From: Thermincola carboxydiphila
GTDB taxonomy: Bacteria > Bacillota > Thermincolia > Thermincolales > UBA2595
Direction: 5' to 3'
Length of the DNA stretch: 64,000 bases
Assembly (NCBI GenBank): GCA_016841045.1
Contig: JAENZX010000016.1
Span: 1-64,000, forward strand
Shown: positions 38,273 to 64,000 of the stretch, in pieces
How the letters are laid out: each line of letters begins with the position of its first letter
Numbering within the stretch: the first letter of the stretch is position 1
The notes under the pieces: model-generated
Database searches by the model: none
What the model was told of the DNA's origin: nothing
The model's input: only the letters and a program-made list of their open reading frames with translations
Position numbers and translations under genes: made by a program

Positions 38273-38329
38273 AAGACCTCCCGGTTTTGGGCATTACACC
38301 CAACACCCCCGTAAAAATCAGATTTGCAT

Positions 38330-40111: not shown

Positions 40112-40233
40112 AACAGGCCCCTTTTCCATGCAGTGACCCGGGGATTATAGCCGAACTTTTCGAGTTCTCTCGCTACTGCCTTTACAATCGTGTAATTGCC
40201 TCCCCAGGCAATAAATAGGATACTTCGATAATT
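40108..40233 (-). pseudogene. TIR-like N-terminal fragment coupled to the TrkA-RyR gene
   Basis: A 41-codon frame ends in a TGA overlapping the ATG of the TrkA-RyR gene (ATGA). It reads YRSILFIAWGGNYTIVKAVA then RELEKFGYNPRVTAW, which looks like the first strand, helix and second strand of a TIR-like nucleotide-binding domain (FI-G----VK-VA--LEK-GY). No ATG, GTG or TTG start is available and a stop lies 9 nt before it. The coding look and stop/start overlap suggest a truncated ancestral gene. This is inference from a short sequence. Confidence 0.45.
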
Positions 40234-40309
40234 TAAAGATTAAATCCTTTATTCTTTCGATCTAATTTGACAAAAACAAACCTCACGAGGTTCACAAATC
40301 CGGATTGTA

Positions 40310-44511: not shown

Positions 44512-44537
44512 AAATAAAAAGGCCTTCATGCGGCCTT
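44512..44537 (-). terminator. Terminator beyond the McrC-like gene
   Basis: On the minus strand AAGGCC GCATGAA GGCCTT then TTTATTTTG. Confidence 0.65.
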
Positions 44538-44570
44538 ATGAGTTGCAGAAACCCTTGATTTTAAGTGGTG

Positions 44571-44594
44571 CCGATACCGGGATTGGTCAGAAAT
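44571..44594. repeat. Decayed copy of the tRNA-Leu 3' end
   Basis: AAGTGGTGCC-GATACCGGGATTG matches AAGTGGTGCCCGAGACCGGAATCG at the 3' end of the tRNA-Leu-like gene at 49822 in about 20 of 24 positions, in the same orientation. The two sites enclose exactly the McrBC-like pair. It may be an old attachment-site copy; chance similarity is not excluded. Confidence 0.4.
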
Positions 44595-44705
44595 GTGATG
44601 TTGCTTATAAGAGATGTACCCACCTTTCGAGGTGGGTATTGTTTTTCTTTGTTTTAGACTGTATAAATGATAACATGCAATTATAAGATAACCGCAAAAG
44701 AAACC

Positions 44706-47264
44706 TTACCACTCTTCCATGAAAAACTCTTTTATCTCTCTGAATACCTTAATTCTATTTCTACGCAACTCCTTTATTGACCAATCTCTTATGTCGCCTG
44801 GCTTCTTAGCAATTAAATAGTCACCAGCAAACTTGATGCTGGTTCTGGGGCGAATAAAAATGTCCTTTAGCTGAGCTTTATCCATTACTATATCATTCGC
44901 ATTAACGTTAATTTCGGGCAGAATTCTCCGGAGCTCCTTCCATAGCCTCAGCTCTTCCTCAGTCTGTAAACTAAGCTCTGGTAACTCTTTGGCCATTAAC
45001 AAGAGTGGCAGGGTAGTAAATAACCGGTCATAGACTCCATATTGTAAAGGAATAATTCTCCTGGGTAATTCCAGCCATTTTTCAATTTCAAAGCGTACAT
45101 ACAGCCCTTTTCTATCACTTTTTATTTCCGTTATCTTCTCTCTTGGTAGTACCCTAAAACTTTTTATTTTACCATAATGTATAATGCCATTATCATTTTT
45201 AAATAGTTCTTTGCGCCTGTAAACAGCAACATATTCTAACTTGCCTAATTCCCTTAGGACATTTTTCAATGGTGTATGGTAGAAATTCAATTTATAGTTT
45301 GTATTCCACTGTTCCTTGTTTCTAAGAGACCCTATAAAGACATTCTTCTTTAAAAACTTGTTATAATAATATTCCTCGGTGCCTTCGTGAACAAGGGCCT
45401 TTTCTGCCGCTGTTTCCGGGGTATCTAAAATAAGTTCGTCCAATAATTCCTCGACCAATCTTGTATGCCCTGGTAGAAAGGGGAGCCCCCCGATATTCAC
45501 ATGTTTAATGCTTTCATAAAAAGTATGGGGTGAACCATCAGTCCTACCAGAGTAATAGTCTTCTTGACTGTAAGGAAATAAGACAAAAGCACCAAATACA
45601 GACCTCTCGAACCCATCATTTCTACTTCCGTATACTATGGCATCCCGGTACCGATGCATAATATTAATATCATCTTCCTCAGGGCCAGGTTTCTTGTGCT
45701 TTTTGAAATAGTTTTCATCTACTGCTGGATTTACTCGGTACTTGGCATCAAAAACATACTTATACGAAATGTTGGATCCTTCTTTACTCAAAGACAGAAC
45801 ATTGTCAGGAATCTGCGCCAAAGTAGGTCCCTTCATCATGTCTTGATAAGAAAGCGAGAATTTTTCTCCACATTTATTTTCATAGTGAATAACAGCTCTT
45901 TTATCCTTTCGCAGGGTTATTGCTAATCCTCTATTATTAACCTTAATTAAATCATTCTTTTTAAGTTGATATTTTTTCTTAAGAACTTTATTCAGGCTTA
46001 AGAAACACCAATATTCATAAAGTGTTGCCAAATCCTTAATAGATAAGTGGAAAACATCAGATTGAATTGATAGTCCTTTTAAAATCATTAAATAGTATTT
46101 ATAAACATCTCTGTAGCCTGAAGCCATTTGCAATACTAGAGACATGTTGTTTAACTGGTGAATTTCGGCAGCTTTGGATAAAAATTGCATCCTGGAAAAA
46201 TTCCGCAGTCGTTCTGCCATACCGCGCAGTTTTTTATCCAATTGAGGGTCAAAACGTGCTTTGTCGTTAGAATACATTCTCAAGTATTCCTGATGAAAAT
46301 GACTCAACTTTTGAATAATATTCTTCAATACTAGCTTTAAAAACCGGTTTTCAAAAGTATCATATGTAATTTCCTTTTTACTCTCCCGCATTTTTAAAGG
46401 AATATAGGTTTGGGGAACAAGAGTTTGAGTTCCGATTCCTATACCACGACCATTGCCAGTTGGTTTTAAAACCTCCGGATGCTTACAAAGCCACTTTGTA
46501 CTCTGATAATCAAATCTCTTTATTTTTTCGATGCGATTTATGTGGTTAACTCTTACAATCTTATGATGAGGATTATCCTTTATAAGTTCTAAGGACTTTA
46601 AAAGCTTCTCAGAAATAAGGCTGATAATACTAAAAAATTCTGTCAGACTAGGCTTAATATTTGAATTTACCTTTGCTCCAAAATAAGTCCTTTTTATAAA
46701 ATCATATGCTAAGTTATAGAGCTCTTCATTAACATCTTTAAGTAGTTCCTGAAAATCCCTCCGATAATCAATCTTTGAAGGAAATACTTCTAACTTGATT
46801 TTTAAAACTGGTTCACCTGATGATAGAATTTGCATTTCCGAAAACCCAATATCGCTTTTGAAGTTGATATTCCCTGAATAGATGTCTTCAGTAAAAGGTG
46901 TAATAGCATCCCGAATATTTTTATTTTCATGGTAGAACTGTAGTTCCTTGCCCTCTAGTGATTTAATCTGAATATTGTAGCTTTGCTGTTCATAGAAGAA
47001 TGGGAAAACCATTGAACCGGGTTTATATTCAGTTAAACCATCTTTATCACTATCCTCAAAAGGGTTGAAGACCCAAGCTGAATAATTGCCCTTAAAAGAC
47101 ACGATCTCCAAAGTAGCCTTTTCCCATCCTCCCCTATCATTACGGTGTAAATATAAATGGTCTACAGTTGGGTGGATTGGCCTCCCTTTAATGACGATAA
47201 AAAGATTATCAGTTTTAATTTTTACTAAGTCTCTCTCCTTAAAGCCAGAAAGAGGTAAAACCAT
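44706..47264 (-). CDS. DUF2357 restriction endonuclease-like protein (McrC-type partner)
   Basis: This 852-residue protein resembles DUF2357 nucleases that replace McrC beside McrB-type GTPases. The helical middle has LATLYEYWCFLSLNKVL (413-429), and the PD-(D/E)xK core is YKYVFDAKYRVNP, with the catalytic D-x-K at Asp506 and Lys508. It should cut DNA when driven by the McrB homologue. ATG 47264 has GGGAGG upstream; the frame overlaps mcrB by 26 nt, so the two are translated together. Long residues 520-852 include a second beta-rich part not recognised. Nuclease target is unknown. Confidence 0.82.
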   Translation of the reverse strand: MVLPLSGFKERDLVKIKTDNLFIVIKGRPIHPTVDHLYLHRNDRGGWEKATLEIVSFKGNYSAWVFNPFEDSDKDGLTEYKPGSMVFPFFYEQQSYNIQIKSLEGKELQFYHENKNIRDAITPFTEDIYSGNINFKSDIGFSEMQILSSGEPVLKIKLEVFPSKIDYRRDFQELLKDVNEELYNLAYDFIKRTYFGAKVNSNIKPSLTEFFSIISLISEKLLKSLELIKDNPHHKIVRVNHINRIEKIKRFDYQSTKWLCKHPEVLKPTGNGRGIGIGTQTLVPQTYIPLKMRESKKEITYDTFENRFLKLVLKNIIQKLSHFHQEYLRMYSNDKARFDPQLDKKLRGMAERLRNFSRMQFLSKAAEIHQLNNMSLVLQMASGYRDVYKYYLMILKGLSIQSDVFHLSIKDLATLYEYWCFLSLNKVLKKKYQLKKNDLIKVNNRGLAITLRKDKRAVIHYENKCGEKFSLSYQDMMKGPTLAQIPDNVLSLSKEGSNISYKYVFDAKYRVNPAVDENYFKKHKKPGPEEDDINIMHRYRDAIVYGSRNDGFERSVFGAFVLFPYSQEDYYSGRTDGSPHTFYESIKHVNIGGLPFLPGHTRLVEELLDELILDTPETAAEKALVHEGTEEYYYNKFLKKNVFIGSLRNKEQWNTNYKLNFYHTPLKNVLRELGKLEYVAVYRRKELFKNDNGIIHYGKIKSFRVLPREKITEIKSDRKGLYVRFEIEKWLELPRRIIPLQYGVYDRLFTTLPLLLMAKELPELSLQTEEELRLWKELRRILPEINVNANDIVMDKAQLKDIFIRPRTSIKFAGDYLIAKKPGDIRDWSIKELRRNRIKVFREIKEFFMEEW

Positions 47265-49623
47265 CTTCAAACCTCCCTAACATGGTGGCGATTTTACGTG
47301 CACTTCTAGGGTACGGTTTAACCTCAGTATTATTTTGAACATATTTTAATGCTAAATCTGCTACATTACCATCCTCATTGGCATAGTTCTGACCTGTAGC
47401 AATTCTGAAAAGGTCGATAAGAACGGTAAATATCTGATTACTGCTGCCTTGTATCCTGGGAAGAATCTTTTGCATAATTTCAAAATCAAAGGCATCATTT
47501 TCATCCAGTAAGTTGAACTTCTTGTTATAGGTCATATAAAAACATATCTCATCCCGAACCCTGTATCCAATTTGCAAGTTAGCCTTAGTCAAAATCTTAT
47601 TCATCTGGTTTAAGCTTTTGTTAATGCTATTTATATACTCAACGTCTTCTAAGCAGTCTTTTAAATAAAGGTACTCTGTCTCAAAAAACCGGGTATCTAA
47701 GTTTAATGATTCTATTGGCTGTAAATCTTTTAACGGCATTAAAGTAAAATCTACTTCAGAGAACTCTAAAGTGTTTGCTCTGTCTAAAACCTTTTTGCTA
47801 AAAGGAAAGGTGGTTTCATCCATATTGACGGTTCCGATAACATAAAGGTTGGGAGGAATTCTTAATTGCCCGAATCTATCAAGGTCCTCTTGTCTAACAA
47901 AAAACTCATCATAAAAGAGGCGCTCAGAATACGACTCATTTCCAGGCTTCTTCTTGGTTTCCATTAAACTTAGAAAATCACTGAAATAGTATTCAACTCT
48001 GGATAGGTTCATTTCATCAAGACAAATAAAGTATGGTTTGTCTAAGTTGTTATTTGCCTTTTCGATAATCCTAGTCAGGGGACCAGGTTGGAATTGCCCA
48101 TGAATGTCCTTAAAGCCTAATAGGTCTGAGCTGTCGTTCCAATCCGGGCGGACAGGTATTATAGTATACTGCCCATTTTCACAAGTAGCTCCAACTGCAT
48201 CAGCAAAAAGTTCAACTAGTTTACTCTTACCGGTTCCTGAAATACCTGCAAGTATTACAAATGGTTTAGTCTTAAGACAGAGGAAAAAGTTCTTTATCAA
48301 TCTGGGGTCATAAATAAAACCCTTGCTAAGAATATATCCACATATATTGTCTATAAGTTCACCATGATCAATGGATTCGGGAGTGCTTTCTGTATGTATT
48401 TCTATGATATTAAACCCACGTTTCTGCAAATATGATTTAGACTGTTCACCGCCACTAAACTGACTTACAGGAATTCCTGTTGCCATACTTATTATTTGTT
48501 TGGGAGGATAGAGGCCATTTTCATATGAAATGGCATATTTTTGGCTCGTTTTATCTTCCCAATCAAACCACTCAGATGTCTGTCGCAAATCATCATCAAA
48601 TTGTTTAATAGCTTGAAGCAACTCATCTCTACTTACATTCGGCAAACCCACTGAAGGCACCTCACCATCCGTGAAACTATCTTTGAGTACAAATTCTGGC
48701 CATATAACTTCCGGTTTTGCTTGCTTAATTATATTGAAGGCATCTGAATTGAACCTAAATAAATACCCTTGTTTAACACTTCCGTTAACATCAATGGGAC
48801 CTTGTTGTATATTTAAGTCTAATAAACCTTTTGAAAAGGTGTTTAATTCAATATTCGGCTCTAAGGGATAATACTTTGTACGAATCAAGCGGCCCATATC
48901 TTGCCAATTGTTATTTGCTAAAGACGTGGGTTTTGGAGCCTCTATAGCTGAGGAAATGACTTCACTTATAAACCTTAAAGCACCATTTGCATAGTGTAAT
49001 ATAGCATCCCCCGGTCTTACTTCTGCCAAGGTATCCCAGTGGTATAGTTTTTGCCCGCTTTTTGATTTTAATGGCGCCCAGAGAATTCCTTCTTTTCGTT
49101 CAAAACCTATGGTTGTTCCCTGGTTAACCCACCAAATGTTCTTGTTTTTACTCTTGTTATTTACATTTACCAATTTTACAGCATATTGAAAAGGAATATC
49201 AGTTTTATAAAATTCAATATATTCTGCTTCAGTTTCCGGAACAACAGTATAACTTCTATCACCTTTTAGTACTTTTTTCTCTCTTTCCCTTTGAATGTAT
49301 TCAAAGCTGCTTTTAAACTCATGTCTTAGCAAACTTCGCAATTCTTTATTTGCTTCATATCTAATTTGCAGAGTGTCGACAGATACGCCCTTACGATCAA
49401 CGTTAGTTAGAATGGCACTATAACTAATATCATTAATTATGAGTTCGATTTCATGCTTCTCTCCGCGCTTTAGATGAACTCCCCCATTAGCGTTCTTAAA
49501 ACTCTCATGAAAATCAAGAGGCACATGAGTGCCATTCTCAAATATAGACCAATCCACTTTTTTCCGACCTATCAAATCTTGTTTTCCCTCCAGATGGGAC
49601 CAGCTATATTTTTCGTTGCCCAT
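47239..49623 (-). CDS. McrB-type AAA+ GTPase with EVE-like modified-base reader
   Basis: This is a 794-residue protein. Residues ~163-300 look like an EVE/PUA domain (NIWWVNQG, WAPLKSKSG, VRPGDAILHYANGALRFISEV) that would read modified DNA bases. Residues ~330-405 match the head domain seen in many modification-dependent restriction proteins (YPPKQIISMATG, GGEQSKSYLQKRGFNI). The AAA+ core has Walker A GISGTGKS (460-467), Walker B FICLDEMN (533-540) and the McrB signature TVNMDETTFPF (598-608). It would translocate DNA by GTP hydrolysis with the DUF2357 nuclease. AGGAGG precedes the ATG. Confidence 0.87.
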   Translation of the reverse strand: MGNEKYSWSHLEGKQDLIGRKKVDWSIFENGTHVPLDFHESFKNANGGVHLKRGEKHEIELIINDISYSAILTNVDRKGVSVDTLQIRYEANKELRSLLRHEFKSSFEYIQREREKKVLKGDRSYTVVPETEAEYIEFYKTDIPFQYAVKLVNVNNKSKNKNIWWVNQGTTIGFERKEGILWAPLKSKSGQKLYHWDTLAEVRPGDAILHYANGALRFISEVISSAIEAPKPTSLANNNWQDMGRLIRTKYYPLEPNIELNTFSKGLLDLNIQQGPIDVNGSVKQGYLFRFNSDAFNIIKQAKPEVIWPEFVLKDSFTDGEVPSVGLPNVSRDELLQAIKQFDDDLRQTSEWFDWEDKTSQKYAISYENGLYPPKQIISMATGIPVSQFSGGEQSKSYLQKRGFNIIEIHTESTPESIDHGELIDNICGYILSKGFIYDPRLIKNFFLCLKTKPFVILAGISGTGKSKLVELFADAVGATCENGQYTIIPVRPDWNDSSDLLGFKDIHGQFQPGPLTRIIEKANNNLDKPYFICLDEMNLSRVEYYFSDFLSLMETKKKPGNESYSERLFYDEFFVRQEDLDRFGQLRIPPNLYVIGTVNMDETTFPFSKKVLDRANTLEFSEVDFTLMPLKDLQPIESLNLDTRFFETEYLYLKDCLEDVEYINSINKSLNQMNKILTKANLQIGYRVRDEICFYMTYNKKFNLLDENDAFDFEIMQKILPRIQGSSNQIFTVLIDLFRIATGQNYANEDGNVADLALKYVQNNTEVKPYPRSARKIATMLGRFEDGFTSFWL

Positions 49624-50080
49624 ATGAACCTCCTGTTAATATTTTCTTCAAGGATTGTCCCTGTTTCATCTAATATCTTCTTGAAAATATTATTAAGACA
49701 TTTTTCGGCATAATAGTAATATTTTCCTGCAAAATTAGATACAAAAAGACCGTTTGGATTAAACAAGAAAAAGGCTTATGTCGGTTTTTTAAAAAACCAC
49801 ATAAACCTTACTCTCTATAAGTGGTGCCCGAGACCGGAATCGAACCGGTACGGGGGGTGAGCCCCGCAGGATTTTAAGTCCTGTGCGTCTGCCAGTTCCG
49901 CCACTTCCTTGATATGATGCGGTTTAGCCTTAATGATGTGCTTTTAGATTAGCAGGATTATCAACAATAAATTCCCTTTTTAAGATTAATCCTGTTATTT
50001 AAATTATACAGTCTTTTATCCATAATTTAAAACATAATAATATCGGGTATTTTTTTCACCCTAAGTAATAAGAAATTGTT
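49624..50080. other. Stretch holding the chimeric tRNA-Leu, otherwise gene-poor
   Basis: Besides the tRNA-like gene, a minus-strand frame starting with TTG near 49766 reads NPNGLFVSNFAGKYYYYAEK and KILDETGTILEENINRR into the mcrB start in another frame. It has no ribosome binding site and may be a gene remnant. The stretch 49911-50080 shows no gene. Confidence 0.4.
49822..49910 (-). tRNA. tRNA-Leu (TAA anticodon), acceptor stem mismatched, probable pseudo-tRNA
   Basis: D arm (GCGGAACTGGCAGACGC), anticodon stem CAGGA/TCCTG with loop CTTAAAA, a long variable arm, T arm ACCGG/CCGGT, the 3' acceptor CTCGGGC, discriminator A and encoded CCA are all intact. The 5' acceptor, however, reads AAGGAAG, where GCCCGAG is needed; only two of seven pairs form. 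Its last five bases match the other common tRNA-Leu type (GCGGAAG), so the gene looks chimeric. It is probably not functional. Confidence 0.75.
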
Positions 50081-50719
50081 TTAGCTTCCTGACGTTACTC
50101 TTAGATATGTTTTGTTCGTAAATCCTTCCATAATTAAATTAAATACTTCATGCATTAATTCTATAACTGTAAAACTCATTTCGGAAATCAAATGTTTATC
50201 TACGGGAACGCTAGATTCCCCATGGGCAATCTTATTTCTAAATAGTAAGAGCTTATCAAGTCTTTTCTTATGAGGCTTTTCGGGTAGAATACTTAAATTA
50301 AATCTTTGAAGTATGGTGTTTATTACTTTATAGTTAACATTGGAATTAGTTGGAATTTGGGGTAGAATCCGCACATCTTTAAAATAATATTTATAAATTT
50401 CATTTACTAGTCGTTGTTTTTTACCGAAATCACTTCTTCCGTTTGTCAAATTAACCTCTATATCTATTGCATGTGTTAGTATGCAATCACTCATTCGTTC
50501 ATAATTTAATTTTAAGCTGTTTAGCTCTCTGGTATAAATTGTAAAGGCTGCAACAATAAATCCTTCCCATAAAGAATAGAGTGCTGGAATACTATATCTT
50601 TCTATTGTATTTCTCTGCTTATCACTTAGAGAAAACAAATATGGAACAGTTTTTAAAATTGAAATTTCATTGATTCTCCAATCAATTTCATAAACCAATT
50701 CTTCTTCTATATTAAACAT
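50081..50719 (-). CDS. MAE_28990-type HEPN protein
   Basis: This 212-residue, mostly helical protein has the HEPN catalytic pattern RNKIAH at residues 161-166 (R-x4-H), preceded by SLWEGFIVAAFTIYTREL, typical of the MAE_28990/MAE_18760 subgroup. HEPN proteins are RNases that act in defence and toxin modules. ATG 50719 follows the DUF262 gene stop by one base, with AAGGTGG upstream, so the pair is coupled. The combination DUF262 plus HEPN is a recurring predicted defence pair, but its activity is not known to me. Confidence 0.82.
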   Translation of the reverse strand: MFNIEEELVYEIDWRINEISILKTVPYLFSLSDKQRNTIERYSIPALYSLWEGFIVAAFTIYTRELNSLKLNYERMSDCILTHAIDIEVNLTNGRSDFGKKQRLVNEIYKYYFKDVRILPQIPTNSNVNYKVINTILQRFNLSILPEKPHKKRLDKLLLFRNKIAHGESSVPVDKHLISEMSFTVIELMHEVFNLIMEGFTNKTYLRVTSGS

Positions 50720-50720
50720 A

Positions 50721-51776
50721 TTAATCCACCTTAAATATTTCCTTAGCAATATTTATTCTACTTTTAACCCTCGATTTACTATTAGCTGCTGACCCAGTGT
50801 ATTTTCTAAATTCATCACTTTGTTTTAGTTCGTCTATTTTTTCAAGTAAGGTCTTACTTCCTAGTTTTTCATAAGCCTCTATGTTATTCGCAACTCCTAT
50901 CGTTATGGCATCATATAAACTAGTAGAAAAAACTCCATTACCAAACCTAAAAATATCCTTTCCAAGAGGCAATAATACACTAATTGTTCTAGTAATCAAA
51001 TCTTCAATGTTATAGTCGAAGGAGTCATTTACTATAACCTCCTTCATATATCTAGTCATGTGTGCTGATACGATTTCTTTTATGTCACCATCACAGTTAA
51101 ATAACGAAACAAAACGCAGAATTAACTCTTCAGGATATAATTCTGAAATTTGCTTTTCGGTTGGCTCAATAAGTTTTATAAATTCAGAATTTGCCGCAAT
51201 TCTCTTAAGAAAGTTGTTGAAGTCAGATGAAACACCCCGAAATATGCAATTTCTAACCTCTTGCTCAGTTAAAGGAGTCCCTCCAGTATTTAATCTATTA
51301 AACAATTCATATCTCATATCTATTTTACTATTCCACTTGATTATTTCTATACGACAAACCGCTCTCTTAATGTTTAGTTGAAATTTCATTGGTAAACTTT
51401 TAATGTCATATCCTTCTAAGGAGGAAATTAAATCTCCTTTGCACAATACCCAGTTATTTTTTTCAGTGTTATTCTTAAGTAGTCCGAAAAATGCTAAAAC
51501 CGTTGATACCCGCTGTAATCCATCTACAAGCTCCCATTTACCATTACAGTCTTCGGCAACAAATATTGGTGGAATAGGAATACCAAGTAACAATGATTCA
51601 ATAAACCTGGTTTGCTGATAAATTGACCACCTAAAAAGCCGCTGAAACTCAGGGTCAATGATAATTTCATCTCGTTCATACATACTCATTATTTCTCCAA
51701 AAGACATATCCAATCTATCCGTGGTTAAGCTGTTTTTGGTTTCTAATATTTGTTTTTCTAAAACTTCAGTATCCAT
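50721..51776 (-). CDS. DUF262 domain protein (ParB-like, GmrS/BrxR-related fold)
   Basis: This 351-residue protein has DPEFQRLFRW at residues 41-50 and WELVDGLQRVSTVL (81-94), the DUF262 core with a DGQQR-like motif (here DGLQR). LFNRLNTGGTPLTEQEVRNCI follows. DUF262 is related to ParB/Srx nucleases and forms the nucleotide-dependent half of type IV GmrSD enzymes; here there is no DUF1524 HNH partner domain, and a HEPN gene takes that place. AAAGGAG precedes the ATG. Confidence 0.87.
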   Translation of the reverse strand: MDTEVLEKQILETKNSLTTDRLDMSFGEIMSMYERDEIIIDPEFQRLFRWSIYQQTRFIESLLLGIPIPPIFVAEDCNGKWELVDGLQRVSTVLAFFGLLKNNTEKNNWVLCKGDLISSLEGYDIKSLPMKFQLNIKRAVCRIEIIKWNSKIDMRYELFNRLNTGGTPLTEQEVRNCIFRGVSSDFNNFLKRIAANSEFIKLIEPTEKQISELYPEELILRFVSLFNCDGDIKEIVSAHMTRYMKEVIVNDSFDYNIEDLITRTISVLLPLGKDIFRFGNGVFSTSLYDAITIGVANNIEAYEKLGSKTLLEKIDELKQSDEFRKYTGSAANSKSRVKSRINIAKEIFKVD

Positions 51777-51842
51777 TTTTTATAACTCCTTTAACTAATC
51801 TTCTTGTTTTGTTAATTATCGGTTAATAAAAATGCAACAAGT

Positions 51843-52040
51843 CTAAATTATACCATTCCCCATAAATCTTTGGTTCCCTTCTTTTCCTTTATCCATTAAC
51901 TGACAGTCTCCAAACAATAATAAGGGTTTTGTCTCAACCTTAAAGGATTTCATTGAATCTAGCATCCTTAGAGCCTTAGGTAATATACCCAAATTTTTCT
52001 TTATTTCGAAAACCTTTTTAAAATACTCTTTTAACTTCAA
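51843..52040 (-). CDS. Small hypothetical frame (65 residues), doubtful
   Basis: The frame (MKLKEYFKKVFEIKKNLGIL...) starts at a TTG inside the end of the preceding small gene and ends QRFMGNGII. It has no clear ribosome binding site. The sequence looks protein-like in the first half only. It could be a remnant left when this island was assembled. No family is recognised. Confidence 0.25.
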   Translation of the reverse strand: MKLKEYFKKVFEIKKNLGILPKALRMLDSMKSFKVETKPLLLFGDCQLMDKGKEGNQRFMGNGII

Positions 52041-52164
52041 CCATCACAATTTTACCACTCTTAATATTCCTTACCTCAACGTTAATTTCATGATACCATG
52101 TTGGTGGATTAGATGCTAATTCCTTAAATAAATCGTTATTTACATCAAGTCTATTGAATGGCAT
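52018..52164 (-). CDS. Small hypothetical protein downstream of GIY-YIG gene (48 residues)
   Basis: ATG 52164 has CTAGGAGGACAAGG directly upstream. The product starts MPFNRLDVNNDLFKEL and ends KSGKIVMVEVKRVF, with a likely beta hairpin at the C-terminus. No family is recognised. It starts 10 nt after the GIY-YIG stop and is probably co-translated with it, which suggests a partner or inhibitor role; that is inference only. Confidence 0.5.
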   Translation of the reverse strand: MPFNRLDVNNDLFKELASNPPTWYHEINVEVRNIKSGKIVMVEVKRVF

Positions 52165-52174
52165 CCTTGTCCTC

Positions 52175-52615
52175 CTAGAGTGGTTTACTCCTTCTAAATG
52201 TTTCAAAGATTGGAGTATATAAGCTTGTTAGCATTCTTTCCATTACTATTCTTCCGTCTTCATCATTTACTTCCTTCCAACATACACATAATCTACCTGT
52301 ATAGCTAGAAAAGAACCTATGCCAAAGTTTATCTTTTGTATCCCCTGAGACTTCTTCAAATGATTCTCTGTAATGGCTTTGAAGTCTATATTTTAATGGT
52401 TTTCCTTTACCAATGTATAAAATTTCTCCATCAAGCTTCTGATATATGTAAATGCCACTTGCCGATTTTACGCTCTTAGAAATATAATCGTTAATTCTTT
52501 TCCGTTCTTCTATGCCGTTAGGCTTGATATGAATTATCTCAAACTTATTCCAGTTCTCACTATTTAACGGAAGAAAGCCGAGGCTAGATAAAAACTCATT
52601 AAAAATCTCTTTCAC
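52175..52615 (-). CDS. GIY-YIG nuclease domain protein
   Basis: This 146-residue protein has GIY at residues 54-56 and YIG at 67-69, Arg77 in LKYRLQSHY, and the catalytic Glu in RIVMERMLTSLYTPIF. GIY-YIG enzymes cut DNA or RNA one strand at a time. The N-terminal ~50 residues (FNEFLSSLGFLPL, FEIIHIKPNGIEERKRI) are not recognised. GTG start with GAGGGGG upstream. It lies between a KAP NTPase gene and a small unknown gene in a defence-rich region, so an antiviral or mobile-element role is possible. Confidence 0.8.
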   Translation of the reverse strand: MKEIFNEFLSSLGFLPLNSENWNKFEIIHIKPNGIEERKRINDYISKSVKSASGIYIYQKLDGEILYIGKGKPLKYRLQSHYRESFEEVSGDTKDKLWHRFFSSYTGRLCVCWKEVNDEDGRIVMERMLTSLYTPIFETFRRSKPL

Positions 52616-52670
52616 TATTTAACCCCCTCAGCAAAGGTAAATAATGCCGTGTAATTAAAGCCCCTGTAAC

Positions 52671-54038
52671 TCAGTTAGCACCAAGCATATTAAAATCATC
52701 TATAAATTCTAGCTTTTTAATGAGGCTACATTCATTGTTGTTATCCCAGAAAGCTCTACTTAAGTTAAAAGAGTATGCATCACTATCTGGTTGACCAACA
52801 ACAAAATCGCGAGCGTTATCTACGGTTTTCATCTTATTCCTTGTTAAAAATTGAGAAATAGTCTGTTTGAAAATTTGCTTAATTAGCTCGTTATCGTATT
52901 CGTAAAAATCAATATCAATCTTAGAAACTTTCATTTCATTCAGTATAACATCTCTATTATCGTAATCCCCCATAAGTATTCTACTGTATAACTGAGGGTC
53001 TTTAATTTTTAGGGTTATTAGTAACGAATATAAGACACCAATTGCCATTAGATATACCTCTTTATAACTTTGTTGTTTTTCAAAAAACTGAGTTGTTGGC
53101 AACAATAAACTTAAGTAATAGAAAAGTTTGTCTAAATCACGCAAACTAAAATCGTAAATTTCTATAAACTCATTAAGAAATAGCCAAAACCACTTCGCTG
53201 CTCTCGATTCGAATCCATAATTATCTTTTAACATTGTCACGTATTTGTTCTTGTCAGGCAAGGGCAAAGAATAAACTAAGTCTATAAATCGTCTTAGATA
53301 ACCTAAAGAATCCATATCTGTACCATACATTGTAGAAACTGAACAAGATAACTGTTTTTTATCTAATGCTAAAACGAAAATATAGTCATTGATGTCAAAA
53401 AGATGCTTAATTTTTTCCAAAGTTTCAATTGCAAATACGGGTCTACATCTGTCTAATTCATCAATAAAGAATATAATTTTTGTATCGTTTTTCTTTTGAA
53501 ACTCCTCTAGGGCGTTCTTAAAATTTTCCTTAGCTTGTTTACACTCAATAAATTGTTGATACTCTAGTTCGCCCAATTTTCCTACAAAATTAGTAATTTC
53601 TACTTCATTAAATTTTCCTAAATCAACTTTGTCCAAATCAATAATGCCATTCGTTGCCAACCTTAATGCAGTAGGCAGGACTTTTTTAAATAACGGTTTG
53701 CCAAATTTCTTTATCTTGTCAATTGCTTTTCCGTCATTCTCATTTAAAATTCCTTCCATACCCCCAATGATTGCTAATAAAGGGTCATCAAAATCATCGT
53801 TTTCCCAAGCATTAAAGTATATTGTTTTATACTTATCACTTTTATCAAGTTTTGCTTTCCACATTTTAATGAAAGTCGTTTTACCTGTCCCCCAAGAAGA
53901 ATCTATTGCTAATACAAAATTCCCTTGAATATTGTCAATAATTTTTGTTAGATTATCTGCAATTGATTCCCTCCCAAGTATATCGTTCTTGAATGGCTCT
54001 TCAGATGGTATTTCTACATACTCGCTTCTTACAATCAC
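52671..54038 (-). CDS. KAP family P-loop NTPase
   Basis: This 455-residue protein has Walker A DSSWGTGKTTF (46-56), YFNAWENDDFDDPLLAII as the KAP-specific block (~74-91), Walker B IIFFIDELDRCRP (188-200) and YIFVLALDKKQL with the sensor region. KAP proteins often carry membrane helices inside the NTPase domain; none is evident here. Bacterial KAP genes are common in mobile and defence loci. GTG start with AAGGAGGG upstream. It reads in the same direction as GIY-YIG, 55 nt apart. Confidence 0.87.
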   Translation of the reverse strand: MIVRSEYVEIPSEEPFKNDILGRESIADNLTKIIDNIQGNFVLAIDSSWGTGKTTFIKMWKAKLDKSDKYKTIYFNAWENDDFDDPLLAIIGGMEGILNENDGKAIDKIKKFGKPLFKKVLPTALRLATNGIIDLDKVDLGKFNEVEITNFVGKLGELEYQQFIECKQAKENFKNALEEFQKKNDTKIIFFIDELDRCRPVFAIETLEKIKHLFDINDYIFVLALDKKQLSCSVSTMYGTDMDSLGYLRRFIDLVYSLPLPDKNKYVTMLKDNYGFESRAAKWFWLFLNEFIEIYDFSLRDLDKLFYYLSLLLPTTQFFEKQQSYKEVYLMAIGVLYSLLITLKIKDPQLYSRILMGDYDNRDVILNEMKVSKIDIDFYEYDNELIKQIFKQTISQFLTRNKMKTVDNARDFVVGQPDSDAYSFNLSRAFWDNNNECSLIKKLEFIDDFNMLGAN

Positions 54039-54187
54039 TAATTACCCTCCTTTTTCGGAACACACACGAGCTGCTCATATAAATTCATTAGTTCGACATT
54101 AGTTTATTTACTTCCTCTTATTTCTTGCCAAATAGTGGGAGTTGAACTACTACCCCAGTCTTGCGGTCTTAATTCATTTCTTTGGTT

Positions 54188-54233
54188 TAAACTATCCCCC
54201 TCGCAATAAAAAGAACTGGCTCATCACCAGTTC
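54188..54233. repeat. Direct repeat copy A
   Basis: TAAACTATCCCCCT, an 8-nt variable part, then AAAAGAACTGGCTCATCA and CCAGTTC. The copy at 56960 differs by a few bases and a 3-nt gap. The pair encloses the two envelope-protein genes; copy B overlaps the integrase end. Confidence 0.8.
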
Positions 54234-54242
54234 TTTTTATTG
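54204..54242 (-). terminator. Terminator after the ankyrin-repeat gene
   Basis: A perfect 16-bp stem, CAATAAAAAGAACTGG with CCAGTTCTTTTTATTG, 7-nt loop. T-rich on both strands, so it may work both ways. Confidence 0.85.
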
Positions 54243-54253
54243 ACATAATGCAA

Positions 54254-55927
54254 TCAGTCTAAATCATAGCCGAAACCTTCGTCACTAATTCCAATAATAT
54301 TCAGTGCTGACTTAACATTCATAAAACTCTGCGAATCATCTTTATAAAAATCATCAAGTTTAGTAATGAACCAATCAGTATCCTTGATGTTAATTTTACC
54401 CTCATTTTTCCAAACCTCTTTCATCTCATTGACCAAAACTTCCTTTTGTTCAGTTGTAAGAATAACCCAGTCATAGCCTGTTGTTTCACTTGCACTTTTT
54501 ATCCAATCTGTATCCCGAATCTCATCTTGTGTTTTTTCATTACTATCTATAACTGACCCTATTGAATCATTCTCTCTGACAAAATCATAATCATCATTGC
54601 TACCATACCAATGAAAACCTGTTATTTTTGAATCTTCGTAATCACCATAATAAGGTTCATAATTAGTCCACGTAAGAAAGCGTATTGACTCATACCCTAC
54701 CTTTAAATGGGGATATTTATAAAAACCACTGTAAAATGCTCCTTCTATTTTTTTATCAGGTAATGCCTGAAACGCAACACTGGCTATCTCCTTTTGCAAT
54801 TGAGTTAGTATTTCCATTGTCTTAATTCTATCCTCATCACTAATTTTAATAGAATATTTTAATTCATATGGGTCTAAGCCCTGTACAGGATTCCAATCAA
54901 TATACAAGTAGTAATCAGTTGTAAATATACTACTATCATTTTCTGTTATGTTGAAAGTGAGTAACCACGTTCCAGCGGGAGTTTCAATTCTTGAATAATT
55001 CTCCTGCAAATAACTAAGTAATTCACTTACTCCTGAAACACCATTAATCTTTTCAAACACACCTTTATCGGAATCTATTGTAGAAGGTTCTTTTGGAGTG
55101 TTTGACATAGCTTCCTCTATAAGTTGTATAATTCTTTCATTCTTTATCCTGTATTCAGGAGAAAGCTGAGCCAAAGAATCTTCCTCAGCTTGCTGTAAAG
55201 CAGTTTTACCATTTTTATCTTTTATTGTTAGGTCTGCTCCTGCATTAATTAACAATTCTGCTACATCATCCCTACCATATGTTATTGCTATCATAAGAGG
55301 AGTAGCACCATTTCGGTTCTTACTATTTATGTCTGCTCCACCATTAATCAACGCACTAATCGTTTGAATTTCGTGAATCGGAACAGCCCACTCCAAAGCT
55401 GACCTGTTGTTTTTAACATAATTAGGATTCGCTCCCTTTGCCAATAAGTCCTTGATTTTATTTACATCGTCATCAAATACTGCACTTATTAATTGATTAT
55501 CCAGACTGTACCTTATATGAATTGTTCTCGTTTTCTCGTACCAATCTACTCTTGCACCACTCGCTTCTCCAACGAATCTTAATGGAACAAGGGTACGACT
55601 ATTTAATATCCTCGGGGCAAGCAATAATTCCTTCTGCACACCATTAACATACGCTACTGTGCTTCCAATTTGCAATTGAATCTTTAAATCCTCTTTCTCT
55701 CCTGTAACTGTCTGACTAGTCGCATCCCACCCCACTTTTAAACCTAACTTTTCAAATATAAGCCGGAATTCTACTAGAGTAGTACCGTTCTCAATTATTG
55801 GGTCATTAGTAAAGTTTAGTTGAACATCATCTATGTATACTGGAATCGGTTGGGCAAAAGCCTGCGAAAAAAAAATACATATAAACACAGTGGTTAAAAT
55901 AAATATTCCTGCTAACCGTTTCAACAT
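54254..55927 (-). CDS. Secreted protein with copper-amine-oxidase-like and ankyrin repeats
   Basis: This 557-residue protein has a signal peptide (LAGIFILTTVFICIFFSQAFA), then a copper amine oxidase N-terminal-like domain (residues ~26-140: PIPVYIDDVQLNF, RTLVPLRFVGEASGARVDW), a cell-surface module common in Firmicutes. About three to four ankyrin repeats follow (ALINGGADINSKNRNGATPLMIA, LLINAGADLTIKDKNGKTAL), then an unknown C-terminal domain of ~290 residues. It is likely exported and binds partner proteins. AGAGGAG precedes ATG 55927. It overlaps or abuts the gene upstream. Confidence 0.8.
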   Translation of the reverse strand: MLKRLAGIFILTTVFICIFFSQAFAQPIPVYIDDVQLNFTNDPIIENGTTLVEFRLIFEKLGLKVGWDATSQTVTGEKEDLKIQLQIGSTVAYVNGVQKELLLAPRILNSRTLVPLRFVGEASGARVDWYEKTRTIHIRYSLDNQLISAVFDDDVNKIKDLLAKGANPNYVKNNRSALEWAVPIHEIQTISALINGGADINSKNRNGATPLMIAITYGRDDVAELLINAGADLTIKDKNGKTALQQAEEDSLAQLSPEYRIKNERIIQLIEEAMSNTPKEPSTIDSDKGVFEKINGVSGVSELLSYLQENYSRIETPAGTWLLTFNITENDSSIFTTDYYLYIDWNPVQGLDPYELKYSIKISDEDRIKTMEILTQLQKEIASVAFQALPDKKIEGAFYSGFYKYPHLKVGYESIRFLTWTNYEPYYGDYEDSKITGFHWYGSNDDYDFVRENDSIGSVIDSNEKTQDEIRDTDWIKSASETTGYDWVILTTEQKEVLVNEMKEVWKNEGKINIKDTDWFITKLDDFYKDDSQSFMNVKSALNIIGISDEGFGYDLD

Positions 55928-55941
55928 TACATTCTCTCCTC

Positions 55942-56736
55942 TCAATTAAAAGAATTAAAATTTTCTACTACATAGGTGTTTTCACTCGTTTTCCTAATGG
56001 TGACCGAAAAATAAGTTCTAATTTTGGCTCCAAAACTGTTTTCAGCATCAACATAAGAATTTACAACAAACCGGTTGTATCCTATTTCTTTTATATCCTG
56101 ACCATTATAACTGAATGGGAAATCCGCTGTAGAAGGTGCTTTAAGCCTTTCCTCCACTGTATCAATTGCAGCAGCCCAGACAAATCCTTTGTCCTCACTA
56201 CTAGGTTCCCTAGGTGAAACGTATTCGTTATTAGGCTCCTCAGATAAAACATGCCCGCTTGTAGAATAGGTTTCGTTGTTTTGACTCATTGTAAAATAAT
56301 ATTTGGAACCGTTTTTTTCTAAAATGTTCTCATTTGACCCTATTTCGTATTTATCCTTGTTTGAAACCACGCTTGAATATATTAAATAATCAGTCCCATA
56401 GACCCAAATATCGTCTAATGCTTTTATGAAATCGTATTTTTTATGGTCAACTAAATTTTGAAACTCTGGACTGTTAACAACCAAGCTATATTGTCTATGA
56501 CCATAAGACTTGCCCTTGTATTTAATGTGGATATTAGCATCCTTCAAATTATATGTTAACGCTAACGCCTTAGCTCTGGAAATATACTCATCTTCATATG
56601 ATTTTTGCTGTAAATACATTGAAATTAAAATGGGTAATATAATTGCTATTGTTCCGATAATTATCAAAAACCACTTTTTCCTCGTATTATTCTTTTGTTT
56701 ATTCTCTTCAGTGGAAGAAAACAAATTACTATGCAT
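55942..56736 (-). CDS. Hypothetical single-pass membrane protein (264 residues)
   Basis: One membrane helix (WFLIIIGTIAIILPILISMYL, residues ~22-42) follows a short charged cytoplasmic tail. The rest is extracytoplasmic. The last ~100 residues (AAIDTVEERLKAPSTADFPF, FVVNSYVDAENSFGAKIRT) match a domain I recall in many small Firmicute lipoproteins and zinc-ribbon proteins, with no known function. GAGGGGG precedes the ATG. It lies 14 nt before the secreted ankyrin protein, so both are probably co-expressed at the envelope. Confidence 0.65.
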   Translation of the reverse strand: MHSNLFSSTEENKQKNNTRKKWFLIIIGTIAIILPILISMYLQQKSYEDEYISRAKALALTYNLKDANIHIKYKGKSYGHRQYSLVVNSPEFQNLVDHKKYDFIKALDDIWVYGTDYLIYSSVVSNKDKYEIGSNENILEKNGSKYYFTMSQNNETYSTSGHVLSEEPNNEYVSPREPSSEDKGFVWAAAIDTVEERLKAPSTADFPFSYNGQDIKEIGYNRFVVNSYVDAENSFGAKIRTYFSVTIRKTSENTYVVENFNSFN

Positions 56737-56959
56737 TTACTAACCCCCTCAAAATGTTTTTTTTACACATAAACTTGTAGCAAATGATTGAATCAATTTC
56801 TTGTGATAATAATTATTTACTCTATTCTTTTTTATTCTATATTTGTATTTATTGTCCTTTATAAAATACATTTTTTCCCTCGTTTGTGTTTTTACAATTT
56901 TCTAGTTCGGAAATTGGAGTACCCTACCTAGCCAATCAGAAATCTGCCCCTTGAAGGTG

Positions 56960-57002
56960 TAAACTATCCCCCTACAAAAAAGAACTGGCTCGTCACCAGT
57001 TC
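56960..57002. repeat. Direct repeat copy B (at the integrase 3' end)
   Basis: TAAACTATCCCCCT, then ACAAAAAAGAACTGGCTCGT and CACCAGTTC. The integrase stop codon lies inside it. See copy A at 54188. Confidence 0.8.
56970..57002 (-). terminator. Terminator overlapping the integrase stop
   Basis: GAACTGG/CCAGTTC stem followed on the minus strand by TTTTTTG. The TGA stop of the integrase is within the hairpin. Confidence 0.7.
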
Positions 57003-57853
57003 AGATTCTCTAAATCCTCATCCATTCTCTTCTGAGTAGTCTTTGTATAAATAGCAGTAGTTTCTAACCTCTCGTGTCCTAAAATCCCTTGTACAGTTGT
57101 TATATCACTTCCTGATTCAAGTAAATATCTAGCCAGACTATGCCTCAAACAATGTGGTGAAACCTCAATCCCTACCCTGTCAGCATATTTCTTTAAGGTC
57201 TTAAAGACTCCATTCCTAGTCAATTGCCCACGCTGCCCTATTAATAAAAACTCACTATCTGTTTTAGGTCTGACCTTCATAAAATCCTCAAAGGCATCTC
57301 TGACATTCTTATTTAAAGCCACAACCCTTTGCTTCATCCCTTTACCAACAATAGATAATTGACCTTTACGTTCCGAAACCTCAATATCCCTGAGTTTGAT
57401 ATTGCAGAGTTCGCTTACCCTGATTCCTGTGTTAATCAATATCTCAAAAATTAGAATATCTCTTTTATTGCCATTCCTGTGAATTTCTTTTCGCAGGGAT
57501 TTAAGGTCTTTAGGTTCTAACCCTTTAAATTGTTGTTGAGAGGTTTGCTTTATTTGTTTGAGTTTGAATTGCTTCTCCAGATACCCTTCAACATTAAGCC
57601 ATTCAACAAACTTATTGATACTAGCAATCTTCCTGTTTACTGTTGCCACTTTTGCCCCATTGGTGACTAAGAAACTTCGGTAATCTTTCAAATCAAGTGC
57701 AATTAACTTTTCAATACCTTCATTAGTTGATTCCTGATACCACTTTATAAAGGCTTTAATATCCAACAAGTAAGATGAAATAGTATTATCCGATTTGTCC
57801 TGCCTAATTAGTTCATCTTGATACTCTTTGATTAATTCTTCTATAGATTTCAT
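56993..57853 (-). CDS. Tyrosine recombinase / integrase (XerC/D-like)
   Basis: This 286-residue recombinase has an N-terminal SAM-like core-binding domain (~1-95) and a catalytic domain with all expected residues: Arg145 in NTGIRVSEL, His234 and Arg237 in SPHCLRHS, His260 in LGHERLET and nucleophile Tyr269 in AIYTK. Size and order match small phage- or island-type integrases and XerC/D. It lies beside a ~45-bp direct repeat, as integrases lie beside their attachment sites. GGAGGT precedes the ATG. Confidence 0.92.
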   Translation of the reverse strand: MKSIEELIKEYQDELIRQDKSDNTISSYLLDIKAFIKWYQESTNEGIEKLIALDLKDYRSFLVTNGAKVATVNRKIASINKFVEWLNVEGYLEKQFKLKQIKQTSQQQFKGLEPKDLKSLRKEIHRNGNKRDILIFEILINTGIRVSELCNIKLRDIEVSERKGQLSIVGKGMKQRVVALNKNVRDAFEDFMKVRPKTDSEFLLIGQRGQLTRNGVFKTLKKYADRVGIEVSPHCLRHSLARYLLESGSDITTVQGILGHERLETTAIYTKTTQKRMDEDLENLNW

Positions 57854-58373
57854 TATGCTGACCTCCTTGGAAACTATTGGTACAAGTTAATTGTACAACT
57901 CTCAAAAGAAACTGTCAACATAATGTTTACTCATAACTATCATTATGGATAGAGTTTCAATTGATTTGAAACAAAAAAGGAGCATAAACTGCCCCTTTAT
58001 CTCAAAAAATCTATATCCATAATAATTTCAAGTTATATTATTATGATTTTTGACTTAAACAAGTATCGCAAACTTACCGTGCAACAGTTGATAAGTTCCT
58101 ATATAAATCTCTTAAATATTATAGAACCTGCCAACTATCATTCAAATAGGCAACTCCTCTTACCTTCGGAAAACCCTTTCAAGCTTCGTAATAACCACTT
58201 TGCACCTGAAATTCGGCTCCTTATTACCTATAATGGTTATTTAACTAGGTTTATTCGAGTATAAGTCGAATAATGCTTCTGATTTCATGTTCTTACTGTC
58301 AAAGACATGTTATTATAAGATTTCATGTTTTCGGTCGGTATAATTAACAATAAATTATCTTCTGATTTGATAT
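57854..58373. other. AT-rich stretch without a convincing gene
   Basis: It contains a hairpin (AAAGG-GCA / TGC-CCTTT, 57972-57996) that may end transcription, and a 73-codon + frame (58043-58264, MIFDLNKYRKLTVQQLI...) with no ribosome binding site and a Leu/Ile/Asn-rich composition. The rest is AT-rich with no recognisable signal. Confidence 0.5.
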
Positions 58374-59261
58374 TTATAAAATTTCTACTGCAATTCCTTC
58401 CCCGTAATTATTAAGTGTTAATTCAATGTTATCTCCTTCGCTAACTGCATTAAATACATCATTATTAACTTTGTAAACCACAATAGCATCATTGGTATCG
58501 ATTTTAATATAATAATCAAACCCTGAAACAAATTTATCTAATACCAATCCAGTAATCGTTGATTGATTGTCGGAATGTTCTAGAACCTCAACATTAACAA
58601 CATAATCCCTATCGTCAAGACTTAATTTTACAGTATCTCCTATGCTCAAATCCTGAATAAAGTCGCCACTCAGTAAATCGTAATAATACTTAATGACTCC
58701 ATTCTGATTTTCTATAGATATAGTACCTCTGGCTGAGGAATAATCTACTGCTGCTCCCTTAAAAATCCCAATATCTGTGGCATTATCTATTTCCTCTCCT
58801 AACACTCTCAGTGAAACTACTTCATTGCTGCTATTAATACTTATATTTACCAACTGACCTCTCATAATTTCAGAGGAGCTACTATCCCATGGATAATAAA
58901 ACCTTGCAATATCATTCAATCTAATACAGGGTTTTCCATCAAGGTAATATAAATCCGTAATTTCTCCAGTAACATCTAATAAATCATTTGGTTCTTTCAA
59001 TTCAGAAATTTGTTCCTGCTGATTTTGAACCACATCTTGCAGTTCTTCAATTTTATATATTTGATTTGCAACCGTAGATTCTAACTCTGAGACCCCACTT
59101 GAAATAAGTCCCATTTCTTGAAATAGTGAAGTAATTTGTTGTTGTATGTTTTTAATCTTTCCGACAACTCCATTGTCATCTTTTGCTTGTACACTCGTTA
59201 CATTAGCAAAAATACTCATGACTAATAATGTGATAGCAATAATAACCCAAGTTCTTTTCAC
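58374..59261 (-). CDS. Secreted or membrane-anchored hypothetical protein with coiled coil
   Basis: The ~295-residue protein has a signal peptide or anchor (WVIIAITLLVMSIFANVTSVQA), a helical coiled-coil stretch (residues ~35-95: IKNIQQQITSLFQEMG, QIYKIEELQDVVQNQQEQI), and then beta-rich repeats, each like DVTGEITDLYYLDG or TVKLSLDDRDYVVNV, perhaps OB-like. No family is recognised. GTG 59261 with GGGAGG upstream is the best start; an ATG at 59330 lies near the IS66 end. The IS66 insertion is 128 nt upstream and may have removed its promoter. Confidence 0.65.
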   Translation of the reverse strand: MKRTWVIIAITLLVMSIFANVTSVQAKDDNGVVGKIKNIQQQITSLFQEMGLISSGVSELESTVANQIYKIEELQDVVQNQQEQISELKEPNDLLDVTGEITDLYYLDGKPCIRLNDIARFYYPWDSSSSEIMRGQLVNISINSSNEVVSLRVLGEEIDNATDIGIFKGAAVDYSSARGTISIENQNGVIKYYYDLLSGDFIQDLSIGDTVKLSLDDRDYVVNVEVLEHSDNQSTITGLVLDKFVSGFDYYIKIDTNDAIVVYKVNNDVFNAVSEGDNIELTLNNYGEGIAVEIL

Positions 59262-59505
59262 TTTAGCCTTCCTCCCTATAGTAATTTCTTTATTTAAACC
59301 TTCTTTATTTTTTAATAATTTCCTTGCCAAAAATTACTACAAACTTCGACACAATTGCAAACTATGCTTTATCAAGAGGTAGTTTAATGTAATCGTCAAA
59401 TAAGACAGTGTATGGAAACTTCCCTAAGTCTGTGAGACAATTCTCTAAATTAGACTTTGTAGAGTTTTTCGACTAGGTCGAAAAACTCCAAAAGGAGGTT
59501 TAGAG

Positions 59506-59868
59506 TTGAATACCAGGGAAGTCACCCACCAGTATCGACTAAAGCAGTGGATGGAGATCATCCGGGAATGCCGCAGCAGTGGCCAGACCGTCTTGGCATG
59601 GTGTGCTGAACATGACATCAATCCAAAAAGCTATTACTATTGGTTAAAACGTGTTCGCATGGCAGCCTGCGAGGCATTGCCATCACTTACCGGTAATAAC
59701 CCGATTGTGCCGGTAAATATGCCGTTGCCCTCAGCCGGTGGTCCTAAGCTTCAAGAATCATCGTCAGATATTGTTTTGCGTTTTGGTGCTGTCACACTGG
59801 AGATTCACAACAGTGCATCCGCAGGGTTGATCGAGAGTATCCTGAGGGCTATGCAAAATGTTAGGTGA
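59506..59868 (+). CDS. tnpA: IS66 family accessory protein TnpA
   Basis: This 120-residue protein has a helix-turn-helix near the N-terminus (RLKQWMEIIRECRSSGQTVLAW and HDINPKSYYYWLKR), the standard IS66 OrfA pattern that binds element DNA. It starts at TTG with AAAAGGAGGT upstream and overlaps the next start by 11 nt, so the three IS66 genes are translated in a coupled way. Length is normal for the family. Confidence 0.88.
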   Translation: MNTREVTHQYRLKQWMEIIRECRSSGQTVLAWCAEHDINPKSYYYWLKRVRMAACEALPSLTGNNPIVPVNMPLPSAGGPKLQESSSDIVLRFGAVTLEIHNSASAGLIESILRAMQNVR

Positions 59869-60214
59869 TATCTCAAAAGCAGAAAAAATATATATCGCTT
59901 GTGGGTATACTGACATGCGTAAGTCCATTGATGGCCTGGCCGCTATCGTCCAGCAGAACTTTCAGTTGAACCCATTCCAAAACAGCCTGTTTCTGTTCTG
60001 TGGCCGGCGGCGTAACCGGATGAAAGCACTGTATTGGGAAGGAGATGGTTTTGTCCTTCTATACAAGCGTCTCGAATCCGGAAGTTTTCAATGGCCAAGG
60101 ACTGCCGAAGCTGTTCGCTCTATCACCAACCAGGAATTTCGTTGGCTTCTGGAAGGCCTATCTATAGATCAACCCAAGGCTGTAAAAAAGCTAAAAATCA
60201 AGGCTTGTATTTGA
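59858..60214 (+). CDS. tnpB: IS66 family accessory protein TnpB (Orf2)
   Basis: This 118-residue protein has YIACGYTDMRKSIDGLAAIV, NSLFLFCGRRRNRMKALYWEG and GFVLLYKRLESGSFQWP, the signature stretches of the IS66 Orf2 (PF05717) family, needed for transposition by an unknown mechanism. It appears complete. Confidence 0.93.
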   Translation: MLGDISKAEKIYIACGYTDMRKSIDGLAAIVQQNFQLNPFQNSLFLFCGRRRNRMKALYWEGDGFVLLYKRLESGSFQWPRTAEAVRSITNQEFRWLLEGLSIDQPKAVKKLKIKACI

Positions 60215-60311
60215 CTGCAAAAATTGCCGAAAACCCGCATAATTACTGGCTTTTTGGGCATTTTTATGTTATAATGGATACAGTTAGAAAAACACAAAAG
60301 GAACTGTATTC

Positions 60312-61845: not shown

Positions 61846-61941
61846 GGCAGAAACTTTAGTTTACACGAGTTTTTGCCTTTTTTCTATCCACCGGGTTATT
61901 TGACGCTTACAAAACAACTAAATTATTCTCGGTTATTATGC

Positions 61942-61968
61942 AAAAAAAATAACCCTATGTGGGGTTTT
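61942..61968 (-). terminator. Terminator after the 580-residue protein gene
   Basis: On the minus strand AACCCCACATAGGGTT followed by TTTTTTTT; the 5-bp stem is flanked by extra A-T pairs. Confidence 0.7.
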
Positions 61969-62016
61969 ATATCAATTCTATAAAAAATGAAGGAGTTTGG
62001 ATTATTATTTAATTCC

Positions 62017-63759: not shown

Positions 63760-63826
63760 AAAGCACTCCACCTTAAACAATTCATAATTCGTAAACTCTA
63801 ATAAAAGAATTCTCCGGAAATAAAAA

Positions 63827-64000
63827 TTAGTATAATTCGTCTATCCTCTTCTTTCGACTAAAGTTGGGGCAGTAATTAGTTTGGCGGTCATAACTGCCCA
63901 AACCGGTATTAGGTCCAGTACATTCATCTGTTCCAAATTTTCTACAGTCCAAGCACTTAGCTATGGGTTTAAAAGGCACCTTTGGCTTTGCGGGAGGTGC
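63827..64000 (-). CDS. Cys-motif protein, C-terminal fragment (cut by window edge)
   Basis: The last 57 residues of a leftward gene whose start is beyond the right edge. After a Pro/Lys-rich APPAKPKVPFKP stretch it has CLDCRKFGTDECTGPNTG and NYCPNF, a four-Cys set that could bind zinc or iron. The family is not recognised. It ends 67 nt before the start of the 580-residue protein gene, in the same direction, so both may form one operon. Confidence 0.55.
   Translation of the reverse strand, partial: APPAKPKVPFKPIAKCLDCRKFGTDECTGPNTGLGSYDRQTNYCPNFSRKKRIDELY

Follow-up and report, generated by a model that had tools for sequence, protein, structure and literature searches.

The window analyzed here covers positions 1 to 64,000 of contig C13 (72,694 bases), which belongs to a genome of 4.16 Mb and 75 contigs. 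It contains two neighboring genes on the minus strand that encode a McrBC-type restriction pair. The first gene (47239..49623) encodes a McrB-like protein of 794 aa with an EVE reader (residues 162-294) and an AAA+ domain, and the second (44706..47270) encodes a McrC-like protein of 854 aa with a DUF2357 domain (E 5e-66) and a PD-(D/E)XK nuclease domain (PDDEXK_7, E 3e-45). The AAA_5 domain of McrB carries the Walker A motif GISGTGKS and the signature GTVNMDE, and lacks the canonical NxxD GTPase signature. Because GTVNMDE is an NxD variant, we assigned the pair to the NxD branch of McrBC and not to canonical McrBC. This variant has been described for a large McrBC branch, which is kept within the McrBC family (PMC11090510). 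In McrC, VFDAKY is conserved in four homologues. The pair was compared with the CoCoNuT systems of the NxD branch, which are marked by a coiled-coil fusion on McrB and, where McrC has lost its nuclease, by a HEPN partner. The N-terminal part of McrB holds the EVE reader and the nuclease motif of McrC is intact; no HEPN gene was found in the McrBC operon.

The EVE reader of McrB matches the EVE domain of VcaM4I with an E of 1.2e-12. In this EVE-HNH endonuclease (PDB 6yex), P24, W82, Q128 and Y130 hold or replace the flipped base (PMC7897488), and all four of these pocket or intercalating residues are conserved in McrB, as P184, W240, Q285 and Y287. Because the EVE reader keeps the residues of the base-flipping pocket, the pair most likely carries out modified-cytosine-dependent restriction of DNA. 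The EVE domain would flip the base out, the ring of AAA+ McrB would serve as the motor and the PD-(D/E)XK domain of McrC would cut. The arrangement differs from VcaM4I, where reader and HNH nuclease form one protein; here the reader belongs to a McrB motor, with a separate nuclease. The pair shares with the type IV McrBC systems of a published census (PMC11090510) the combination of an AAA+ McrB and a DUF2357/PD-(D/E)XK McrC, encoded in overlapping frames of a single operon, but has NxD in place of the NxxD GTPase motif and an EVE reader in place of the reader domain of the E. coli system. The sequence that precedes the GTPase domain in McrB is not shared by the adjoining part of the homologues in two compared genomes (G001 and G009), a divergence in line with the swapping of reader modules.

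The McrBC genes have a GC content of 35.7%, the 20.2-kb island next to them 36.9% and the backbone 47.7%. Two att sites flank the McrBC segment (44562-49905), an intact core at 49818-49905 and a decayed site at 44562-44583 that is orthologous to scars in related genomes. Within the segment there are two ORFs of at least 100 aa, McrB and McrC; neither matches an integrase model, and the segment has no integrase or transfer genes. A remnant of an older element's integrase was expected at 49.6-49.8 kb, and none was there.

Two scars of the tRNA-Leu(TAA) 3' end

The sequence at 49.8 kb had been described in an earlier note on this DNA as a chimeric tRNA-Leu(TAA), with seven first bases that cannot pair with the 3' half and resemble another tRNA-Leu type. 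The spoiled acceptor is real: ARAGORN called no tRNA at 49820-49905 (minus strand), and the Rfam tRNA model matches positions 6-65 only, with 36.1 bits, whereas the intact copy scores 57.4 bits. In the acceptor, the 5' strand (AAGGAAG, facing the 3' CUCGGGC) pairs at positions 6-7 only, and the inability to pair thus applies to positions 1-5 but not to positions 6-7. A search for an intact tRNA-Leu(TAA) elsewhere in the genome, as the note had proposed, found a stretch of 88 bp with 100% identity on the same strand at C13:70067-70154, 6 kb past the end of the window. There, ARAGORN calls an intact tRNA-Leu(TAA) (C13:70071-70159) beside a tRNA-Cys gene and a gene that, by its sequence, we named as an nrdJ-like ribonucleotide reductase. 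The identity extends from tRNA position 6 to four bases beyond the CCA, so that the copy at 49818..49905 (minus strand) comprises tRNA positions 6-89 followed by CTTA. Because the identity begins exactly at position 6, bases 1-5 of this copy are sequence of the neighboring element and do not come from another type of tRNA-Leu. Gene conversion between tRNA-Leu types was ruled out as the origin of the chimera for the same reason. Behind the copy lies a terminator (49766..49821, minus strand), with a hairpin of -21.5 kcal/mol (z -6.3) and then a T-rich tail, that was probably the tRNA's own before the island arrived.

The 88-bp repeat bounds a low-GC defence island of 20.2 kb (49906-70066), of which 49906..64000 lies in the window. 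The intact tRNA stands at one end and the copy of the tRNA 3' end stands in direct orientation at the other. A tyrosine integrase gene (about C13:68.8-70.0 kb, including a Phage_integrase fragment at C13:69411-69989) abuts the 3' end of the intact tRNA, and an excisionase-like (xis) HTH_17 gene lies nearby at C13:68495-68725. The integrase frame is broken, with its parts in different frames, a frameshift and internal stops (as read in the multi-contig assembly), and therefore the island is probably stuck. This is a textbook tRNA-targeted island, apparently immobile now. Homologues of its integrase in 150 genomes are at most 41% identical, and no tRNA-Leu comparison was gained from them. A second tyrosine recombinase in the island (56993-57853) is intact, and the cargo includes a helicase-nuclease resembling PDC-S37. 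The island also holds, on the minus strand, a HEPN (MAE_28990-like) gene paired with a GmrSD_N/DUF262 gene (50081-51776), resembling the PD-T4-2 / NsnA (Nsn) defence system, and a KAP-family NTPase (52671-54038) that matches the candidate defence family PDC-S20 (E 9e-109). An IS66-type transposase set occupies 59506-61733.

The 49.8-kb copy is an integration scar, as the earlier note had suspected, although it represents the distal att of a separate island, which does not include the McrBC pair, and not the tRNA of this locus with a damaged 5' end. The note had also suggested that no integrase is left, which is true within the pair, but a broken one lies nearby, outside the window (C13 68.5-70.2 kb), and belongs to the 20.2-kb island.

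The other scar lies past the McrB/DUF2357 genes, at 44562-44583 (minus strand), where ATCCCGGTATC-GGCACCACTTA aligns to ATTCCGGTCTCGGGCACCACTTA of the tRNA 3' end with a local score of 29. Shuffled controls scored lower: the best of 12 sequences of 64 kb, searched on both strands, reached 25, and the best of 150 stretches of 5.8 kb reached 22. When the tRNAs called in the loci retrieved from the genome were compared, the same tRNA-Leu(TAA) with its CTTA flank ranked first (31), followed by the other tRNA-Leu(TAA) (23) and then by a score of 20. An origin from a different tRNA was ruled out on this ranking (20 for the best match other than tRNA-Leu(TAA), compared to 31). Orthologous scars with their flanks occur in two same-family genomes, in G004 with 88% identity over 51 bp (E 2e-9) and in G007, where the scar was found by alignment. 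The three orthologous scars have decayed at different bases (GGTCTAGGATACCACTT, GGTCTCGGGCATCACTT and, in this genome, GGTATC-GGCACCACTT), and a majority consensus of the three restores the tRNA 3' end exactly. Behind the scar, G004 and G007 have a terminator of the same kind as the one behind their intact tRNA-Leu.

Because the similarity is unmatched by shuffles, is orthologous in two genomes and has decayed at different bases, we consider this scar to be old and real; a chance match was ruled out by the shuffles and the orthologous scars together. It looks like the tRNA's original 3' end, displaced by insertions. The decayed copy that the earlier note had placed here, and its proposal that both copies were left by integration, are thus borne out. 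A terminator-like hairpin behind the old scar (44519..44537, minus strand) came from a pattern scan; its flank is similar to that of a G001 scar, and its fold is only slightly more stable than those of shuffled sequences (z -1.2). The plus strand has a strong terminator (z -4.6) at 44616-44639, between McrC and the old scar, with a close likeness to the terminator behind the G001 tRNA-Leu. ATCAAGG motifs, possible arm-type integrase sites, occur near several scars and coincide with terminator stems.

The same tRNA site elsewhere in the genome and in relatives

The genome has a second nrdJ-tRNA-Cys-tRNA-Leu(TAA) locus, on contig C75 (L107:3099-3187 and L111, C75:246099-281000). The island at this locus, about 29 kb long, is a different one, and the integrase beside the tRNA is also frameshifted. 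The distal scar of that island lies at C75:275032-275096, and a second McrBC pair follows 1.2 kb behind it. The layout is the same at both loci (tRNA, island, scar, McrBC), and at both McrBC is the layer under the younger island. The two McrC proteins are 81% identical and the NrdJ proteins of the two loci are 68% identical, so the two McrBC pairs probably diverged more recently than the loci that carry them. The islands themselves share an IS66 stretch only. About 530 bp at the start of the IS66-type set in the C13 island are 85% identical to the copy in the C75 island. Behind the C75 McrBC pair (C75:280988-281023) there is an internal tRNA-like fragment with a score of 27, weakly above chance (0.1 expected per 57 kb).

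We compared the locus with the same-family genomes G004 and G007, as well as with G001, G002 and G009. The DNA at C13:28.4-33.1 kb lies 37 kb downstream of the intact tRNA-Leu here; its syntenic counterpart in G004 and G007 is about 8-10 kb from their intact tRNA-Leu, also downstream. By this backbone synteny the insert measures 37 kb in this genome, 9.9 kb in G004 and 8.2 kb in G007. The slot between tRNA and scar in G004 and G007 contains other small genes and not McrBC; one of them is read as a DUF4065-type antitoxin from its sequence. Extra copies of the tRNA-Leu 3' end were found in G001 (three), in G002 (three), in G004 and G007, and on contig C17 of this genome. As a control, we searched for the 3' end of tRNA-Cys and found only the intact genes at the locus, plus a few unlinked matches with two mismatches. 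Because extra copies of the tRNA-Leu(TAA) 3' end occur and the tRNA-Cys control yields none at the locus, we regard this 3' end as an integration hot spot in this bacterial family. None of the relatives compared showed a completely empty tRNA-Leu site.

The stretch from the backbone edge to the old scar (36485-44394) encodes a DUF4231/SLATT-like protein, a TrkA_N-RyR protein, a DUF4062-STAND-TPR protein and a divergent radical SAM protein. These genes are without a DNA match at the corresponding place in G004 and G007. An empty-site search that started from the radical SAM gene (43480-44394) found best homologues in the relatives that are about 40% identical and unlinked.

Proposed serial integration and alternative explanations

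We propose that elements integrated site-specifically one after another (serial or tandem integration) at the tRNA-Leu(TAA) 3' end, which lies downstream of nrdJ-tRNA-Cys, and we assign this explanation a probability of roughly 0.85. An old element would have integrated first, displacing the tRNA's original 3' end and its terminator, which would now be the worn scar at 44562-44583. This old layer would then have decayed to the McrBC pair without an integrase, a remnant resembling a CIME. The 20.2-kb defence island would later have integrated at the tRNA thus restored, so that it came to lie between this gene and McrBC; it would have left the 88-bp distal att with five acceptor bases from the element and rebuilt the intact tRNA at 70071-70159. 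Because the 49818 copy closes the island on its other side and 44562-44583 is an older scar, we infer that McrBC is an integrase-less remnant between an old and a young scar. The earlier view of the pair as a small island with worn ends that had lost its integrase therefore holds insofar as the pair lies between two scars and has no integrase, but the pair is not a self-standing island and its two ends do not match each other.

McrBC could instead be chromosomal, or could have been brought by ordinary recombination at a variable site, with the scars of other elements merely bracketing it. The pair has no integrase remnant of its own, as this explanation would have it, and two of the four close homologues (in G001:C2 and G009:C37) sit away from tRNA genes and scars. 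The same two homologues indicate that the McrBC pair is not tied to tRNA integration, and McrBC as a tRNA-Leu-specific element was unsupported. Yet the low GC of the pair, the different cargo in the same slot of relatives and the same position of McrBC at the paralogous C75 locus all speak against a chromosomal origin or ordinary recombination, which we consider rather unlikely.

The presence of McrBC behind the island's distal scar at both loci would also fit co-transfer, in which McrBC and the 20-kb island arrived as one composite of 25.5 kb that ends at the intact tRNA and at the 44571 scar, with 49818 as an internal att; movement of such tandems of a CIME and an element has been described (PMC5704250). 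However, the two ends differ in age: the 49818 scar shows full identity to the intact tRNA, whereas that at 44571 is worn and occurs in G004 and G007 as well. The islands of the two loci, moreover, have nothing but the IS66 stretch in common. A single composite arrival is thus improbable. We give hardly any credence to the idea that 44571 resembles the tRNA by chance and that the 49820 tRNA is a decayed duplicate produced by homologous recombination. Although the match is short (23 columns with one gap) and tRNA-Leu loci are duplicated in this genome, no shuffle reached the score, two genomes have orthologous scars and an integrase stands beside the intact copy.

Precedents and further observations

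Tandem accretion at a tRNA gene is already known, and this locus is a clear example of the process. The published sequence of events has three steps: an element integrates at the 3' end of a gene, it decays to an att-flanked CIME without an integrase, and a further element then enters at the end thus restored (PMC5704250). Serial integration at our locus would share this three-step anatomy with the ICEs and IMEs at the tRNA-Lys gene of S. thermophilus and S. agalactiae (Pavlovic 2004, reviewed in PMC5704250). The hosts and the tRNA are different, however, and here the remnant consists of a type IV restriction pair only and its outer att is badly worn, which makes mobilisation of the remnant in cis unlikely. 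The ssrA islands of Dehalococcoides (PMC3146451) are likewise serial, with short direct repeats of the RNA gene's 3' end and with some islands that have no integration module; they use a serine recombinase and a tmRNA target, whereas the island described here has a tyrosine integrase and targets tRNA-Leu(TAA).

With this reading, a puzzling chimeric tRNA becomes an insertion layer with a relative age, and the order in which defence genes arrived at a single tRNA can be read from how worn the scars are. Broken tRNA-like genes in annotations can also signal an intact gene and an integrase beyond the view. The locus offers a clear example from a bacterial family that has received little study, and the hot spot lends itself to checks in related genomes. 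It is conceivable, though doubtful, that the tRNA-Leu(TAA) 3' end in this family serves as a serial slot for small defence cassettes without integrases (McrBC here, other small genes in G004 and G007) that are moved in trans by the integrases of passing islands, and that McrBC moved between the two tRNA-Leu loci in this way.

The copy on contig C17 (C17:47799-47815, L135) is an orphan scar of the tRNA-Leu(TAA) 3' end; its terminator flank resembles the flanks of the G001 scars, and the surrounding 19 kb contain no tRNA gene. Upstream of nrdJ, at the contig end (L041:12300-12694), there is a perfect tandem repeat of 170 bp in 2.3 copies.
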